Assembly (NCBI GenBank): GCA_031275035.1
Contig: JAISPH010000152.1
Location: 1 to 5,273, forward strand
Origin: Treponema sp.
GTDB lineage: Bacteria; Spirochaetota; Spirochaetia; Treponematales; Breznakiellaceae
Direction of reading: 5' to 3'
Length of the DNA: 5,273 bases
The translations under genes and the position numbers were made by a program. Shown here piece after piece: positions 1 to 5,273 of the stretch. Numbering within the stretch: the stretch's first letter is position 1; each line of letters opens with the position of its first letter. The notes beneath the pieces were generated by a model, which saw only the letters and a list, made by a program, of their open reading frames with translations, was not told the origin of the DNA and did not search any database.

Positions 1-18
1 TGGAACAGCTTCTTACCC

Positions 19-80
19 TTGGAGAAAATTGCATAAGCCGTAAATGCTTACCTTATAAGAAATTAGCAATTTTCTCCCAA
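19..80. repeat. Inverted repeat with 33-base interior
   Basis: The left arm at 19-32 (TTGGAGAAAATTGC) is the reverse complement of the right arm at 66-80 except for one extra G in the right arm. The 33 bases between them contain smaller self-complementary pieces, such as TAAGC at 34-38 and GCTTA at 46-50. The right arm directly abuts the hairpin at 81-117, and the first ten bases of the window (TGGAACAGCT) resemble the 3' arm of that hairpin (TGGAACAGGCT). The block therefore looks like a composite of palindromic intergenic repeats cut by the window edge. No coding sequence is evident in bases 1-185. Confidence 0.6.
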
Positions 81-117
81 AGCCTGTTCTAAAACCAACC
101 GGGTTTTGGAACAGGCT
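81..117. repeat. 16-bp-stem hairpin, possible terminator of an upstream gene
   Basis: AGCCTGTTCTAAAACC at 81-96 pairs with GGTTTTGGAACAGGCT at 102-117 over 16 positions, with one T-G wobble and a five-base loop (97-101). A run of five T residues lies a few bases after the stem (within 121-127), so the structure could stop transcription arriving from a plus-strand gene left of the window. The core TTCYAAAAC...GTTTTGGAA resembles the hairpins at 4328-4358 and 5234-5264, which suggests a dispersed palindromic repeat family more than a dedicated terminator. The two roles are compatible. Confidence 0.65.
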
Positions 118-134
118 CAAATTTTTAGAGTTTA

Positions 135-185: not shown

Positions 186-1397
186 GTGAATATTTTTACC
201 CGGATGCCCAAAACAATAGGGCGGAGTATTCGCGTCCTGATAGGCAAGGCCGCCAAGTTGTTTCACCGGCCCAAAAAGCCGATTTCTCCCCTGGCGGACA
301 GGCTCCTGGCGGATGCCCTGCGGCTGGCGGAGATCCCTTCCCCGACCCGGCGGGAGGAACAGCGGGCCGCTTTTGTGCTGGAACGGCTCAACACCCTGGG
401 ACTCGTTCCCCGGGTCGATGAAAACGGCAATATCCTGGTGCGGATCCATTCGGCGGAGCTCGTGGATGAACCGCCCCTGCTCCTGTTCACCGATCTCGGC
501 TCAAGCCGCTGGCACCCCCTGGAGAGCCTCTCCCGGCTGGACGCGGTCCAGGCCGCCGGGGCGGGGTTGGGGGACGTTCTGGGCGTCGCGGCGCTGCTGT
601 CCGTGGCGGAAACGGTGGCCGGCGGCCGGAACATCTGCCGCCGGGATCTGCTCCTCCTCTTCGCGGCCCGGTCCTTTGATGATCCTGAGACGGATGTTTT
701 TTATTCCGTTACCGAAATCCCCATAAACCGCCCCTGCGCCGCCATCGGGGTCCGGGGTTTTACCCTCGGGTCGGTACGGACCCATACCCACGGAACCTAC
801 CAGATCAACATTTCCTTTTCCATGGATACCAAAAAGGAACCCGACAACGCCGGGCTCTGCAATGAGGCGAATGTGGTGGTGGACGCCCTGTTGTCAACCG
901 CCCAGAAACTCTCCCGGATTACCGGAGCGACCAATAATGCCGTCCATTTATACACGCGCCGCCTTGAGGCCGGCACCGGATTCGGCCGTACCCCGTCGGA
1001 GGGGCTCCTGGAGATTGAGCTGGAGTCCTCCGACGCTTCCCTGCTGGATAACACCATGAACCAGGTCAAGACCACCGCGGAGAGCGCCGGGGACGGAAAA
1101 CTCCTCAAAATCGCCGTAAATGTTACCTCCTTTATTCCCGTGGGGGATCCCGCGATCAACGCGGAGCTTTTCCTGGAGGTCCGGGAGATTATGAGGGAAC
1201 TGCGGATCAAAATGAACGAAGAAACCAGCTCCGACCCCTCGGCGTTCCTCTCCAACCAGGGTATTCCCGCCTTATCCCTGGGAATGGTGAACGGCCAGGA
1301 AGGGCTTCTTAAAGATCATATCGAGATTGGCTCCATAGAAAAGGGGCGCTTATTGCTTGAAAAAATAATAACCCGGATACCAAAGGAAAAAAGGTGA
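186..1397 (+). CDS. Degenerate M20-family peptidase-like protein, probably not a metallopeptidase
   Basis: The 403-residue protein has the layout of M20 (peptidase T/ArgE-type) enzymes. It has an N-terminal segment LRLAEIPSPTRREEQ (residues 45-59), a glycine-rich turn GAGLGDVLGVAALL (125-138), a central region that should correspond to the lid domain, and a C-terminal SSDPSAF...GIPALSLG stretch (348-366). By eye alignment, the usual HxD ligand motif reads FTD (101-103), the EE motif lies where residues read RSF (162-164), and the C-terminal metal-binding His is replaced by Leu near 374-375. Asp103 and the bridging Asp130 remain. A zinc-dependent hydrolase therefore looks unlikely, and a binding or structural role is inferred. 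Residues 10-32 are basic, with no clear signal peptide or membrane segment. The GTG start is chosen because GGGGGA (171-176) precedes it at suitable distance; an ATG at 204 has no such site. The gene overlaps gpgS by GTGA, so the two are probably translationally coupled. Confidence 0.75.
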   Translation: MNIFTRMPKTIGRSIRVLIGKAAKLFHRPKKPISPLADRLLADALRLAEIPSPTRREEQRAAFVLERLNTLGLVPRVDENGNILVRIHSAELVDEPPLLLFTDLGSSRWHPLESLSRLDAVQAAGAGLGDVLGVAALLSVAETVAGGRNICRRDLLLLFAARSFDDPETDVFYSVTEIPINRPCAAIGVRGFTLGSVRTHTHGTYQINISFSMDTKKEPDNAGLCNEANVVVDALLSTAQKLSRITGATNNAVHLYTRRLEAGTGFGRTPSEGLLEIELESSDASLLDNTMNQVKTTAESAGDGKLLKIAVNVTSFIPVGDPAINAELFLEVREIMRELRIKMNEETSSDPSAFLSNQGIPALSLGMVNGQEGLLKDHIEIGSIEKGRLLLEKIITRIPKEKR

Positions 1398-2371
1398 ATT
1401 CCCATACCAACGCCCTTTTGCGGAAAACCTGGCACCATTCCCGGTTTCAGGACATAAGCCGCTTGGTTAATTTAAAGGAAAAGAAAGGGCTCAGGATATC
1501 CCTCGCCTTTCCGACCCTGAACGAGGAATCCACCATCGGAAAGGAAATTTTGGTGATCCGTACCGAACTCATGGACCGCTACCCCCTGATCGATGAAATT
1601 GTGGTGATCGACTCCTCCTCCAGGGATAATACCCGGAAGGTGGCGGAACGGTTCGGCGCCCGGGTGTTTACCTCTAAAACCATACTGCCCAAATACGGCA
1701 CGTACCAGGGCAAGGGGGAAAATCTTTGGAAGAGCCTCTACGTTCTTGAGGGGGATATTATTGTCTGGGTTGACGCGGATATTTCCAACATTGCCCCCAA
1801 ATTTGTGTACGGCCTGGTGGGCCCCCTTTTGGAGGATGATAAAATCGGCTATGTCAAGGCCTTCTATGAACGGCCCCTCCGGTCCTCAGGGGGAATAACC
1901 TCCTCCGGGGGCGGCCGGGTTACGGAGATCCTGGTACGGCCCATCTTTTCCCTCTTTTATCCGGACCTGGCCCGGCTGATTCAGCCCCTCTCCGGGGAAT
2001 ATTCAGGCCGCCGGAAACTCCTGGAACAGCTTTCCTTTTCCGTAGGTTACGGGGTCGAGCTGGGGCACCTTATCGATATTTTTCACCTGGACGGGATAGA
2101 GGCCCTGGCCCAGGTCGATTTGGATATGCGGATCCACCGCAACCAGCCCACCGCCGCCCTGGGGAAAATGGCCTTCGGCATCCTCAATACCTTTTTGGCC
2201 CGGGTGGAAAAATACGGGACCGCCCGGATGCTCCGGGAGTTTCAGCGGGAGCATATCGCCCTTATCATGGAAAACAACATTCACAAAGTCCAAAAAACCC
2301 ATATTTCGGGGATTGAACGCCCCCCCATGATCGAAATCCCCGAATACCGGGAAAAATTCGCCGGCAGATAA
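1394..2371 (+). CDS. gpgS: Glucosyl-3-phosphoglycerate synthase (GT81 family)
   Basis: This 325-residue cytoplasmic glycosyltransferase should transfer glucose from an NDP-glucose donor to 3-phosphoglycerate, giving glucosyl-3-phosphoglycerate, the precursor of glucosylglycerate. Family hallmarks are visible in order: AFPTLNEEST (38-47) and DSSSRDNT (73-80) of the GT-A fold, the GKGENLWKSL stretch (106-115), the metal-binding DAD motif (D127, D129), YERP (158-161), the phosphoglycerate-binding GGGRVTE loop (172-178), the QPLSGEYSGRR stretch (197-207), GYGVELG (218-224), and His248, a likely second metal ligand. The length is normal for GT81. The GTG start overlaps the stop of the previous gene and is preceded by AAGGA (1383-1387). 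A mannosyl donor or product cannot be excluded by sequence alone, but the motifs are of GpgS type and not of GT55 MpgS. No GpgP-like phosphatase is present in the window. Confidence 0.92.
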   Translation: MNSHTNALLRKTWHHSRFQDISRLVNLKEKKGLRISLAFPTLNEESTIGKEILVIRTELMDRYPLIDEIVVIDSSSRDNTRKVAERFGARVFTSKTILPKYGTYQGKGENLWKSLYVLEGDIIVWVDADISNIAPKFVYGLVGPLLEDDKIGYVKAFYERPLRSSGGITSSGGGRVTEILVRPIFSLFYPDLARLIQPLSGEYSGRRKLLEQLSFSVGYGVELGHLIDIFHLDGIEALAQVDLDMRIHRNQPTAALGKMAFGILNTFLARVEKYGTARMLREFQREHIALIMENNIHKVQKTHISGIERPPMIEIPEYREKFAGR

Positions 2372-2419: not shown

Positions 2420-3061
2420 ATGGATACTATGGCATTACGGAACCTGAGCTACGGCATGTTCGTCCTGGGGACGAAAGACGGAGGCCGGCCCACGGGCTGT
2501 ACGGTGAATTCGGTTATCCAGGTTACGTCGGAACCCGCGCTCATCATGGCCTGCGTCAACCACCGGAATTTCACCAACCAGTGCATCAAACAATCGAAGG
2601 GCTTTTCCGTATCGATCCTCTCCGAAGAAGCGTCCGGGGCGCTCATCGGAACTTTCGGTTTCCGCTCCGGCCGGGATACGGATAAATTTGCCTCCGTCCC
2701 CTACGGCCTTACGGGGCAGGGGTATCCCGTATTAAAGCTCCACACCTGCGGCTGGCTGGAATGTACCCTGGAATCCTTTACGGACCTTGAAACCCATACC
2801 CTCTTTATCGGCAGCCTGACCGGCGCGGAATCCGCGGTGGGAAACCCCATGACCTACGCCTACTATCACCGGGTGGTCAAGGGAAAGGCCCCGGTAAACG
2901 CCCCCATCTTTGAAAAGCCCCTGGACAGCCTCTGGACCTGCCCGATCTGCGGCTATCAGTACGATGGATCCGCCGGCCCCTTTGAGGATCTGCCCAACTC
3001 ATGGAGGTGCCCGATCTGCGGCGCCGAAAAGGGCATATTCAAACTCATATCGAGTCGATAA
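2420..3061 (+). CDS. Flavin reductase-rubredoxin fusion (high-molecular-weight rubredoxin type)
   Basis: The 213-residue protein joins an FMN-binding flavin-reductase-like domain (about 1-155) to a C-terminal rubredoxin domain (about 172-209). The first part has the family's start LSYGMFVLGTKDGGRPTGCT (9-28), followed by SEPALIMACVNHRNFTNQ (37-54) and FSVSILSEEA (62-71). The second has two CPICG iron-binding motifs (Cys174, Cys177, Cys197, Cys200) and the typical PFEDLPNSW segment (187-195). The spacing between the two Cys pairs is about ten residues shorter than in free-standing rubredoxins, as in other short rubredoxin modules. Proteins with this architecture, such as Hrb of Moorella, pass electrons from NAD(P)H to flavodiiron proteins that reduce NO or oxygen. 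That role is inferred here because no flavodiiron gene is in the window. The ATG at 2420 has AAGGAGG at 2407-2413, an ideal spacing. It may be co-transcribed with gpgS. Its 3' end overlaps the convergent ROK gene. Confidence 0.9.
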   Translation: MDTMALRNLSYGMFVLGTKDGGRPTGCTVNSVIQVTSEPALIMACVNHRNFTNQCIKQSKGFSVSILSEEASGALIGTFGFRSGRDTDKFASVPYGLTGQGYPVLKLHTCGWLECTLESFTDLETHTLFIGSLTGAESAVGNPMTYAYYHRVVKGKAPVNAPIFEKPLDSLWTCPICGYQYDGSAGPFEDLPNSWRCPICGAEKGIFKLISSR

Positions 3062-4172
3062 ATTCCGAGCTGAAGGTAAGGGCCGCGCCGGCGGCAATTG
3101 ACCATATTTTATAGCGGCATATATCAAGATAATCCGCGTCGTGTTCAAAAGAATTGAGGGCGGCGGCCCGCTTTTTCAATTCCGGCATATATTTTTCTAT
3201 ATACTCAGCGATATAACCGCCTAAAATGACCGTACAGTCAAACAGCTGCTGAACATTATTAACCGTCATGGCCAGATCGTCAAGATAGGCGTTCCACAGG
3301 GCGGCGGCGTTTTTATTGTTTTCTCCAAGGAGCTTGAAAAAGGCGGACAGATCGCCGCCCGTTGAATCCGATAAAACCGTCGCCGCGAGATAGGCGTCAA
3401 CACAGCCCCGCTGACCGCAGTAACATTGCTTGCCGCCGGGGTGGAGCGTCAGGTGCCCGATTTCGCCGGTGTGGTAATGGCGGCCGTTCAGTATCCGGTT
3501 TTCTATCATCACCGCGCCGCCGATGTTGTTGCTTAAACTGATATAAAAAGCGCTGCCCGACTTTCCGTGGATCCAGAATTCGCCGAAACCCGCGGCGCTG
3601 GCATCGTTAAGGAGCGCTGTTTTATACGGAATGTACTTAGAAAACGCGGTACGGGTTGCCCCGGTGAATTTGAGGATCTCCCCGTAAAAGACCCTTTCCC
3701 TGTCTTCCGTTACCAGCCCGGGCACCCCAATACCCGCCCCGAGGATACGGCTCTCGTCGGGATTGACATTTTTGACGACATTTTCCACCACGGCGCCCAG
3801 CTTTTTATAGTAGGCGTCGCTCAGCGTGAATTTACACCACCTTTGCGTCCGGTAGATTATTTCGCCGGCCAGATCCACCGCCACGGCGATTACATAATCC
3901 CTGGTAATATCCAGGCCGACGGCGATGCGGGCGTCTTTGGCCATGGTCCAGGTTTTGGCGCGCCTGCCCCCGGTATGGCCTACGATCCCTTCCTCTTTTA
4001 TAAGCCCCTCGCCCTGAAGGGTGGTAATATTATTGACAACCGTCGGGAGGGACAGGCCAAGCTGATGGACAATATTCTGTTTCGTAAGGCCCTGCCCCTG
4101 CCTGAGCAGCTGGTACACATTGGTCCGGTTGATTTTTTGAATGTCCAGATTCAATGGTTTTGTTTTTTTCAC
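3045..4172 (-). CDS. ROK-family transcriptional regulator (NagC/XylR type)
   Basis: This 375-residue protein has an N-terminal winged helix-turn-helix (about 11-62; INRTNVYQLLRQGQGLTKQN and SLPTVVNNITTL) followed by a sugar-kinase-like ROK domain. The ROK zinc motif is intact: GEIGH (236-240) and CYCGQRGC (250-257), giving His240 and Cys250/252/257, with Asp259 at the usual Glu position. The LLNDASAAGFGE segment (187-198) and NNIGGA (215-220) match the sugar-binding region. The N-terminal ATP phosphate loop of true ROK kinases (DxGxT) is absent after GLDIT (86-90), so this is a sensor and not a kinase. Such proteins usually repress sugar-use genes and are released by a sugar. The start is GTG at 4172-4170; no Shine-Dalgarno is visible, and the -10 box lies only eight bases upstream. 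The gene is divergent from the hydrolase, its likely target, and converges with the flavoprotein gene with a 17-base overlap and no terminator between them. Confidence 0.92.
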   Translation of the reverse strand: MKKTKPLNLDIQKINRTNVYQLLRQGQGLTKQNIVHQLGLSLPTVVNNITTLQGEGLIKEEGIVGHTGGRRAKTWTMAKDARIAVGLDITRDYVIAVAVDLAGEIIYRTQRWCKFTLSDAYYKKLGAVVENVVKNVNPDESRILGAGIGVPGLVTEDRERVFYGEILKFTGATRTAFSKYIPYKTALLNDASAAGFGEFWIHGKSGSAFYISLSNNIGGAVMIENRILNGRHYHTGEIGHLTLHPGGKQCYCGQRGCVDAYLAATVLSDSTGGDLSAFFKLLGENNKNAAALWNAYLDDLAMTVNNVQQLFDCTVILGGYIAEYIEKYMPELKKRAAALNSFEHDADYLDICRYKIWSIAAGAALTFSSEFIDSI

Positions 4173-4233: not shown

Positions 4234-4258
4234 TTTGAATTTTAGAAAAAAATTCAAA
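4234..4258. promoter_or_regulatory. Candidate ROK operator 1 (upstream palindrome)
   Basis: TTTGAATTTT at 4234-4243 and AAAATTCAAA at 4249-4258 form a perfect 10-base inverted repeat around the five bases AGAAA. It lies between the two divergent promoters, ending seven bases before the hydrolase -35. Within it, TTTTAGAAAA (4240-4249) recurs exactly in the second palindrome at 4303-4312. AT-rich palindromes of this kind are known ROK-regulator targets; binding here is inferred. It could also act as an UP element for the hydrolase promoter. Confidence 0.55.
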
Positions 4259-4265
4259 ATTTTTG

Positions 4266-4293
4266 TTGACAGACCGGGAAACCATGGTATAAT
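4266..4293 (+). promoter_or_regulatory. Promoter of the alpha/beta hydrolase gene
   Basis: TTGACA at 4266-4271 and TATAAT at 4288-4293 are perfect sigma-70 hexamers with a 16-base spacer. The predicted start near 4300 gives a leader of about 97 bases that includes operator 2 and the left repeat arm. So strong a match suggests a promoter held in check by a repressor. Confidence 0.8.
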
Positions 4294-4301
4294 AACAATC
4301 G

Positions 4302-4313
4302 GTTTTAGAAAAC
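4302..4313. promoter_or_regulatory. Candidate ROK operator 2 (at the transcription start)
   Basis: GTTTTAGAAAAC is a palindrome of two five-base arms around AG, placed just downstream of the hydrolase -10, from about +2 to +14 of the transcript. That is a classic repression position. Its core TTTTAGAAAA starts exactly 63 bases after the same ten bases in operator 1, about six helical turns, which would suit cooperative or looped repressor binding. Confidence 0.6.
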
Positions 4314-4327
4314 GATCTGATATTGGA

Positions 4328-4367
4328 GCATTTCCAAAAACTGAAGTTTTGGGAAAGCCTCATTGTA
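4328..4367 (+). repeat. Left copy of the hairpin repeat flanking the hydrolase gene
   Basis: Bases 4334-4367 are a perfect 34-base reverse complement of 5225-5258. The copy consists of an imperfect hairpin (GC-TTTCC-AAAA side at 4328-4339, TTTTGGGAAAGC at 4347-4358) and a non-palindromic tail CCTCATTGTA ending at 4367. The left stem carries an A insertion at 4330 and one fewer C than the right copy, so the hairpin here is bulged. It lies in the hydrolase leader, 15 bases before the Shine-Dalgarno sequence. Confidence 0.85.
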
Positions 4368-4396
4368 ATTTCCTAAAAAGGCAGGAGAGATAAACC

Positions 4397-5221
4397 GTGA
4401 AAAAGAATATACAAATAGAGGCGGAAGATCTACTGATAGCCATGGCTGACGGCATAGTGTATGCCCAGCGCCCGGATTTTTGCGATATAACTTTCAGGCA
4501 GCTGCGCTTAAGCCTTTTGAAGCCCCGTACTTATTTTGATTATGATAAACGAGTAATATGGCCGGTCATTGTATTTATATGCGGCGGCGGCTTTACCGAA
4601 ATGGACCGGAACGCGTGGGTTCCGGAATTGTCATGGTTTGCAAAGCGGGGATACGTAGTGGCCAGTGTAGATTATACCACCCGAACCCGTTCCCGATTCC
4701 CGGAGCAATTAATAGATATAAAAGAAGCCATACGGTTTCTGCGGGCTCATGCGGCTGAATTCGGCCTGGATCCCGCGCGGTTTGCCGTGATGGGGGAGTC
4801 CGCCGGAGGCTACTTAAGCGCCATTACCGGTGTTACCGGAAAAACGCGGGAGTTTGACACGGGTGGTAATCTGGAGCAGTCAAGTGAAGTCCAGGCAGCG
4901 ATTCCATGGTATCCTCCGGTGAATCTTGGGGGTATTAAATTCGAGGATTTTATGCTCCCCATTTTGCCCCAGGGCTTGAAGGACTATCCCAATATACTGG
5001 ATTTTGTGCATAAAGAAGCGCCCCCCTATATGATCCTGCATGGCACCGCCGACACTCAGGTGCCGGTTTCCGAAAGTGAGGCGCTGTACGATGCGCTCCA
5101 AAAGGCGGGGGTAGATGCGGATCTGATTATTTTTGAAGGCGTGGAACATGCCGAAGCTCACTTTGTACAGCCCCAGGTTAAACAGATGATGCTGGATTTT
5201 CTCAACAGGCACCTGAAATAA
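4397..5221 (+). CDS. Alpha/beta hydrolase, BD-FAE-like carbohydrate esterase candidate
   Basis: The 274-residue protein is a serine hydrolase of the type that includes bacterial acetyl-xylan and feruloyl esterases. Its order is clear: the strand WPVIVFICGGGF (55-66) holding the oxyanion-hole glycines, with Cys62 where many relatives have His; ELSWFAKRGYVVASVDY (77-93); the FPEQLIDIKEAIRFLRAHA helix (101-119); the nucleophile elbow GESAGG with Ser135; HGTADTQVPV with the probable acid Asp219; and GVEHAEAH with His251 (or His255) as the catalytic base. No signal peptide is visible, so it likely acts in the cytoplasm on imported esters, perhaps acetylated oligosaccharides. The substrate is inferred from the family and the sugar-type regulator next door. 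GTG is chosen because AGGAGAGA (4383-4390) precedes it. The 34-base inverted repeats flank the gene but leave its promoter outside. Its base composition looks more AT-rich than the 186-3061 genes (for example 23 G+C in 4501-4560). Confidence 0.88.
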   Translation: MKKNIQIEAEDLLIAMADGIVYAQRPDFCDITFRQLRLSLLKPRTYFDYDKRVIWPVIVFICGGGFTEMDRNAWVPELSWFAKRGYVVASVDYTTRTRSRFPEQLIDIKEAIRFLRAHAAEFGLDPARFAVMGESAGGYLSAITGVTGKTREFDTGGNLEQSSEVQAAIPWYPPVNLGGIKFEDFMLPILPQGLKDYPNILDFVHKEAPPYMILHGTADTQVPVSESEALYDALQKAGVDADLIIFEGVEHAEAHFVQPQVKQMMLDFLNRHLK

Positions 5222-5224
5222 TAA

Positions 5225-5264
5225 TACAATGAGGCTTTCCCAAAACTTCAGTTTTTGGGAAAGC
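5225..5264 (-). repeat. Right copy of the hairpin repeat flanking the hydrolase gene
   Basis: This copy starts three bases after the hydrolase stop with the tail TACAATGAGG. It continues into a strong hairpin: GCTTTCCCAAAAC at 5234-5246 pairs with 5251-5264 (one bulged T) around the loop TTCA. It is inverted relative to the left copy and its hairpin is more perfect. No T-run follows in the nine remaining bases, so it is at best an atypical terminator, though such a stem may protect the 3' end of the mRNA. Confidence 0.85.
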
Positions 5265-5273
5265 AACCTTAGA

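Follow-up and report, generated by a model that had tools for sequence, protein, structure and literature searches.

MITEs are small non-coding repeats with terminal inverted repeats and are presumed to be mobilised in trans. REP elements carry a tetranucleotide tag, GTAG or CGTC, which stands unpaired at one end, and in the sections of the source cited here the Spirochaetes are named among the phyla that have the CGTC repeats (PMC3733652). The BOX elements of Streptococcus pneumoniae are presented, in the cited part of their description, as a composite interspersed repeat that is thought to be parasitic (PMC3049150). Integrons are a further point of comparison for single genes lying beside palindromes; according to the passages cited here from PMC3607928, the two cultured termite treponemes, T. 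azotonutricium and T. primitia, show no trace of them.

Here we describe a window of 5,273 nucleotides from Treponema sp. (the window being the whole stretch of DNA that was analysed), in which an esterase gene lies between two inverted repeats (Table 1). A repeat search of the window returned arms of 40 nt that are 95% complementary, with 857 nt between them, and the 34-nt perfect inverted repeat described in a first-pass annotation of this DNA is indeed present. As that annotation also had it, one gene with a ribosome-binding-like site lies inside the repeats and a promoter-like site lies outside (sites assigned by eye). The 27-nt hairpin contained in the arms occurs at two places only in the window when up to three mismatches are allowed, and two matches were obtained in none of 200 shuffles of the window. 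No Rfam family reaches its gathering score in the window, and we found no description of such a hairpin repeat in Treponema in a literature search limited to open-licence PMC papers. The best solved relative of the esterase is 6nkf (E 4.1e-38).

Table 1. Features of the 5,273-nucleotide window.
Feature	Position	Strand	Remarks
Third element copy, class B three-hairpin element	1..118	+	first hairpin mostly lost at window start; ends ..GGCTC
Peptidase-like gene	186-1397		named by eye, no family hit
Glucosyl-3-phosphoglycerate synthase	1394-2371		NF010496, 383 bits, cut-off 262
ROK-family regulator	3045..4172	-	divergent from esterase; 88% identical to G043
Promoter-like TTGACA-16-TATAAT	4266..4293	+	by eye; boxes 4266-4271 and 4288-4293; outside repeat pair
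Left element copy, single-hairpin form	about 4326..4361	-	5' GAGGCTTTCCCAAAACTTCAGTTTTTGGAAATGCTC 3' on minus strand
Inverted repeat arms	4328-4367 / 5225-5264		40 nt
Exact part of inverted repeat	4334-4367 / 5225-5258		34 nt
Shine-Dalgarno-like AGGAG	4383-4387		by eye; inside repeat pair
Alpha/beta hydrolase, BD-FAE esterase type (PF20434), 274 aa	4397..5221	+	GTG start 4397, stop 5221
TACAAT	5225..5230	+	6 nt of exact repeat beyond element consensus; partner 4362-4367, minus strand
Right element copy, class A start	5231..5273	+	GAGGC-hairpin-GCAACCTTAGA; window end cuts three-hairpin element

The hairpin element is a dispersed, mostly intergenic and modular repeat of the Treponema family. 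A search of related genomes, which the first-pass annotation had proposed as a check, found the 27-nt hairpin at up to two mismatches in 84 of the 195 family genomes, with as many as 66 copies in one of them (G107), and a reversed-pattern control gave 0 in every row. Seven of the 392 genomes in a sample of the phylum had a match; five of these are among the 17 that are also on the family list, and the remaining two, out of 375 others, have one copy each with two mismatches. Scanning with the esterase protein led to three contigs, two of them from Treponema sp. MAGs whose isolate names point to an origin in termite guts. The 27-nt hairpin is present in both MAG genomes and, at up to three mismatches, in all four genomes of the genus of one of these MAGs. 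A 19-nt core gave 6 to 96 matches per genome, compared with 0 to 2 for its reversed control. No exact match to the 27-nt hairpin was found in the IMG/VR viral contigs, and searching plasmids with window positions 4300-5273 returned two short matches only, both within the hydrolase gene.

From the fetched loci we collected 144 readings of the element, representing 139 places, with five near-symmetric copies read on both strands; two of the 144 are the window's own copies. Readings centred in an open reading frame of at least 120 aa numbered 29 of 106, compared with 1303 of 2120 random positions (61%) in the same loci. The element starts with GAGGC and continues into an imperfect stem-loop (..CCAAAACTTCAGTTTTTGG..). 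After this first hairpin it either ends, in ..GCTC or in the symmetric ..GCCTC, or runs on through a central stem-loop and a terminal hairpin that ends in ..GGCTC. The GAGG stands at -9, a fixed distance 5' of the hairpin, in 94 of the 144 readings; it lies opposite a 3' CCTC in symmetric copies, and the flank on its 5' side is AT-rich without strong sequence. The single-hairpin form is about 36 nt long. Pattern extraction yielded 38 longer copies, which were grouped into class A (12), class B (9) and class C (11), with six left unclassed. Since a rough sorting of the 144 readings gave 76 multi-part, 28 single and 40 that were neither, the forms of the element are not sharply bounded.

Pairing in the outer stem takes several forms, TTTC/GAAA being seen in 68 readings, TGTT/AACA in 18 and the mixed TTTC/AACA in two, the rest having other combinations. 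Co-variation was scored over 90 distinct sequences with 500 shuffles, and positions -3 and -1 of the stem were above all shuffles. At -3 the pairs are T-A (52), G-C (26) and C-G (1), so that 79 of 90 sequences are paired compared with a shuffle maximum of 59; at -1, 74 of 90 are paired compared with a maximum of 67. Position -4 equals its shuffle maximum and the remaining outer positions are near their shuffles. This co-variation of the outer pairs supports, rather than proves, a selected stem, the copies being related to one another.

The forms of the element on the two sides of the esterase gene differ, the left copy stopping after one hairpin (..GCTC) and the right copy running on into the class A sequence. 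The left copy lies between the promoter-like site and the Shine-Dalgarno-like site of the esterase gene, its predicted fold reaches into the GAGG, and its layout, GAGGC-hairpin-..GCTC, recurs in other genomes (for example at loci L025 and L217). When aligned with the 12 class A copies, the right copy agrees with them across all 43 nt left in the window, and positions 5230-5273 match a copy in G099 without a difference (100%) and several others at 98% identity. At the other end of the window, positions 1-118 were aligned with the nine class B copies and share 86-89% identity with copies in G025, G177, G050 and G088. A start and an end within element copies suggest that the contig was broken off at repeats on both sides, as expected of a short-read contig, and the repeat copies may account for where the contig begins and ends. 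A fold-back of the assembly at the contig end was considered and ruled out, as past the right arm the sequence (AACCTTAGA) continues the class A element instead of complementing the sequence past the left arm.

The exact identity of the arms had been taken in the first-pass annotation as a sign of recent origin or ongoing conversion. Neither is needed, since the 28-mer GAGGCTTTCCCAAAACTTCAGTTTTTGG is common: it is exact in 54 of the 144 readings, and in 52 of 142 when the window's own copies are left out. The ten-base tail that had been placed outside the hairpin is in part the GAGG, which the 94 readings noted above show to be conserved within the element, and in part TACAAT, which does not belong to the element consensus. 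Equal runs of at least six flank bases were seen in 8 of 4371 pairs of readings, or about 0.2%; since TACAAT matches as well, the window's two copies may not be wholly independent of each other.

The right hairpin is strong on its own in folding predictions (−15.3 kcal/mol, z −5.0), as might be anticipated if the hairpins were two similar intrinsic terminators or processing sites of the esterase gene. However, neither copy is followed by a T run, the left copy precedes the gene, and the same hairpin adjoins unrelated genes, and we find this explanation hardly credible.

The reading that we prefer, and to which we assign a probability of just under nine in ten, is that the inverted repeat consists of two oppositely oriented and separate copies of the dispersed modular hairpin element. 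One copy lies in the leader of the esterase gene and the other behind the gene. The copies would move as non-autonomous elements, mobilised in trans, probably by a host enzyme or one belonging to an insertion sequence, and those lying within transcripts would act as hairpins, possibly tuning RNA stability or expression. Two copies of a palindromic element on either side of the gene had been one of the two possibilities put forward in the first-pass annotation, and it draws support from the dispersal, from the differing forms, from an orientation that is not favoured among close copies, from the lack of framed loci among the esterase homologues and from the differing element content of corresponding gaps (see below), as well as from the frequency of the exact 28-mer.

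Y1 transposases are candidates for the mobilising enzyme. Matches to them are present in 119 of the 195 family genomes. The hairpin, at up to three substitutions, was seen in 3 of the 56 Y1 loci read, many of which are cut by contig ends, and a Y1 match was lacking in 7 of the 22 element-bearing genomes searched. Neither these Y1 loci nor these genomes yielded a mobilising enzyme. We also note one 2.0 Mb MAG (G068) with 47 Y1 transposase matches, in which the hairpin occurs 51 times; for the 20 hairpins listed of these 51, transposase matches and hairpins mostly occupy different places.

Close copies were compared in the six genomes for which the coordinates of all matches (252 in total) were listed. 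Neighbours within 1500 bp numbered 16, compared with 8.9 expected from uniform placement, a slight clustering that could be explained by restriction of the copies to gaps between genes. Nine of the 16 pairs are tandem, five are divergent, which is the arrangement in the window, and two are convergent; the orientation of the window's pair is not favoured among close copies in these six genomes. Two other divergent pairs that were read in detail enclose coaD (G048; TIGR01510) and the gene for an NHL-repeat protein (G050).

Corresponding gaps in related genomes differ in their element content. At the coaD locus, G048 has first hairpins on both sides of the gene; in G050, with coaD in the same place, there are terminal-hairpin-like stretches without a first hairpin; and in G034, again with coaD in the same place, neither a first hairpin nor a terminal-hairpin-like stretch was found. 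The gap upstream of the peptidase-like gene is occupied in the window by a class B element; at the corresponding place G050 has a first hairpin, G049 has a terminal-hairpin-like stretch alone, and G048 has neither. Our claim from these gap alignments, which are rough and leave the exact ends outside it, is that element content appears to change around a stationary gene. In the gaps compared, neither an exact empty site nor a target duplication could be made out, and the right-hand junction of the window's own pair lies past the window end. The repeat family provides pairs of related loci that differ by the presence of a hairpin in a leader or an operon gap.

The genes surrounding these gaps gave some further observations. 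The window's peptidase-like, glycosyltransferase and flavin-reductase genes share 84-86% DNA identity with those of G050. The peptidase-like gene adjoins that for glucosyl-3-phosphoglycerate synthase, and the two are likewise paired in G048, G049 and G050. On contig G050:C229 (L163, about 4275-4340) only the last part of a ROK gene is present, beside the flavin-reductase gene, and this remnant is followed by zinc alcohol dehydrogenase-like, FGGY kinase-like and L-ribulose-5-phosphate 3-epimerase-type genes. Upstream of the flavin-reductase gene in G048:C44 (L166, about 5330-5800) a GGGGTCAGACC-like unit is, by eye, repeated many times in tandem over a long stretch.

Homologues of the esterase at E≤1e-20 were found at 23 loci in 20 of the 195 genomes, with a best identity of 56%. 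At none of the 23 loci do hairpins frame the gene within the flanks that were fetched, and the sole locus with a hairpin in those flanks (L070) has it at two places on the same side. In G043, where the window's ROK gene and promoter have their nearest relative, no homologue of the window's esterase was found at E≤1e-20. Window positions 4240-4306 are 84% identical to the region of G043 that precedes a set of ABC-transporter genes, so that the promoter stretch is shared. There it is followed by the sugar-transporter genes (a binding protein, PF13407, and an ATPase and permease similar to those of G001), and these by an esterase of another family (PF00756) that has no BLAST similarity to that of the window (E 1.1). 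Synteny between the window and G043 ends between 4306 and about 4328, near the left hairpin, and 4307-4325 aligns poorly. Two of the ABC sugar-transport gene sets in G001 begin with a homologue of the esterase, so the esterase in the window may be the first gene of a ROK-controlled operon, with transporter genes past position 5273.

The second possibility in the first-pass annotation was a gene cassette moved by its terminal hairpins, in which the esterase and both hairpins would have moved as one unit into the leader of the ROK-controlled operon. The transporter genes lying directly behind the shared promoter stretch in G043, the loss of synteny close to the left hairpin, and the lack of an apparent promoter between the repeats 5' of the gene would all fit such a movement. 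Yet the two elements are of different forms, none of the homologous esterase loci is framed, and the absence of any esterase above 56% identity in the 195 genomes means that there is no second copy of the block in them. Divergent pairs, moreover, are not in excess (5 of 16), and the two others that were read in detail enclose unrelated genes. We therefore regard a cassette as very unlikely. The first-pass annotation had itself named two observations that would speak against a cassette, dispersed copies of the element and conservation of the esterase at this locus without the repeats; the first was made, and the second was not, since G043 lacks the esterase. A false lead, that of a hairpin-ended gene cassette, is thereby removed and is replaced by a repeat family occurring in 84 of 195 related genomes.

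The same loss of synteny near the left element might instead mark a breakpoint, at which recombination between copies joined an old promoter to a different gene. Such a repeat-mediated rearrangement would be favoured by the large number of copies, which often share an identical stretch of 28 nt, by the position of both window ends within copies, and by the first place that homologues of the esterase take in sugar-transport gene sets of G001. The promoter stretch, however, is shared with one relative only and the junction is blurred by the poorly aligned positions, while what looks like a leftover GGAG may just as well be the end of the element itself (GAGC). On balance we hold a rearrangement to be unlikely. 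The idea that positions 4325-4328 are what remains of the ribosome binding site of a displaced operon was rejected, as the GAG there can belong to the end of the element. In a wider picture, GAGG-tagged mobile repeats of one or three hairpins would pervade one spirochaete family, be moved by an enzyme and serve as recombination points that swap genes behind promoters, the esterase included; this we offer as a doubtful conjecture.

Under the preferred reading of two separate copies, the locus can be set beside the systems described at the outset. In a MITE the inverted repeats bound a single element, whereas those of the window are parts of two, and no target duplication was made out for them. 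A promoterless single gene beside imperfect palindromes is reminiscent of an integron cassette with its attC site, at least as these are described in the part of the source cited (PMC3607928), but here the copies are dispersed and inverted rather than forming a directly repeated array, a distinction made on geometry and description. Like inverted ends around the same cargo at more than one site, as in a cassette or composite transposon, were not found among the 23 homologous esterase loci, and the two ends in the window are of different forms.

The closer likenesses are to REP and BOX elements, which the Treponema element resembles in being small, structured, mostly extragenic and presumably non-autonomous. 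With REP elements, as set out in the cited sections, the Treponema element shares short imperfect palindromes (within 20-40 nt) that are dispersed and mostly extragenic, and a conserved tetranucleotide at one foot of the hairpin (PMC3733652). However, the tag is GAGG, again in 94 of 144 readings, rather than an unpaired GTAG or CGTC, it can pair in symmetric copies, three-hairpin forms exist, and no regular nearness to Y1 transposase genes was seen (3 of 56 Y1 loci, many of them cut by contig ends). With BOX elements, in the cited part of their description, it has in common fixed 5' and 3' modules around a variable middle and stable predicted folds (PMC3049150); in Treponema the middle falls into three classes or, in single-hairpin copies, is absent. 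Unlike in BOX, the single-hairpin form is common, and the phylum is a different one; the two are likened by build and not by sequence. The clear forms and ends of the repeat family offer material for studying how such repeats move. With GAGG as its tag and Y1 genes not regularly seen beside it, the element is not classed here as a classical REP, and it is best filed as a REP/BOX-like repeat family.
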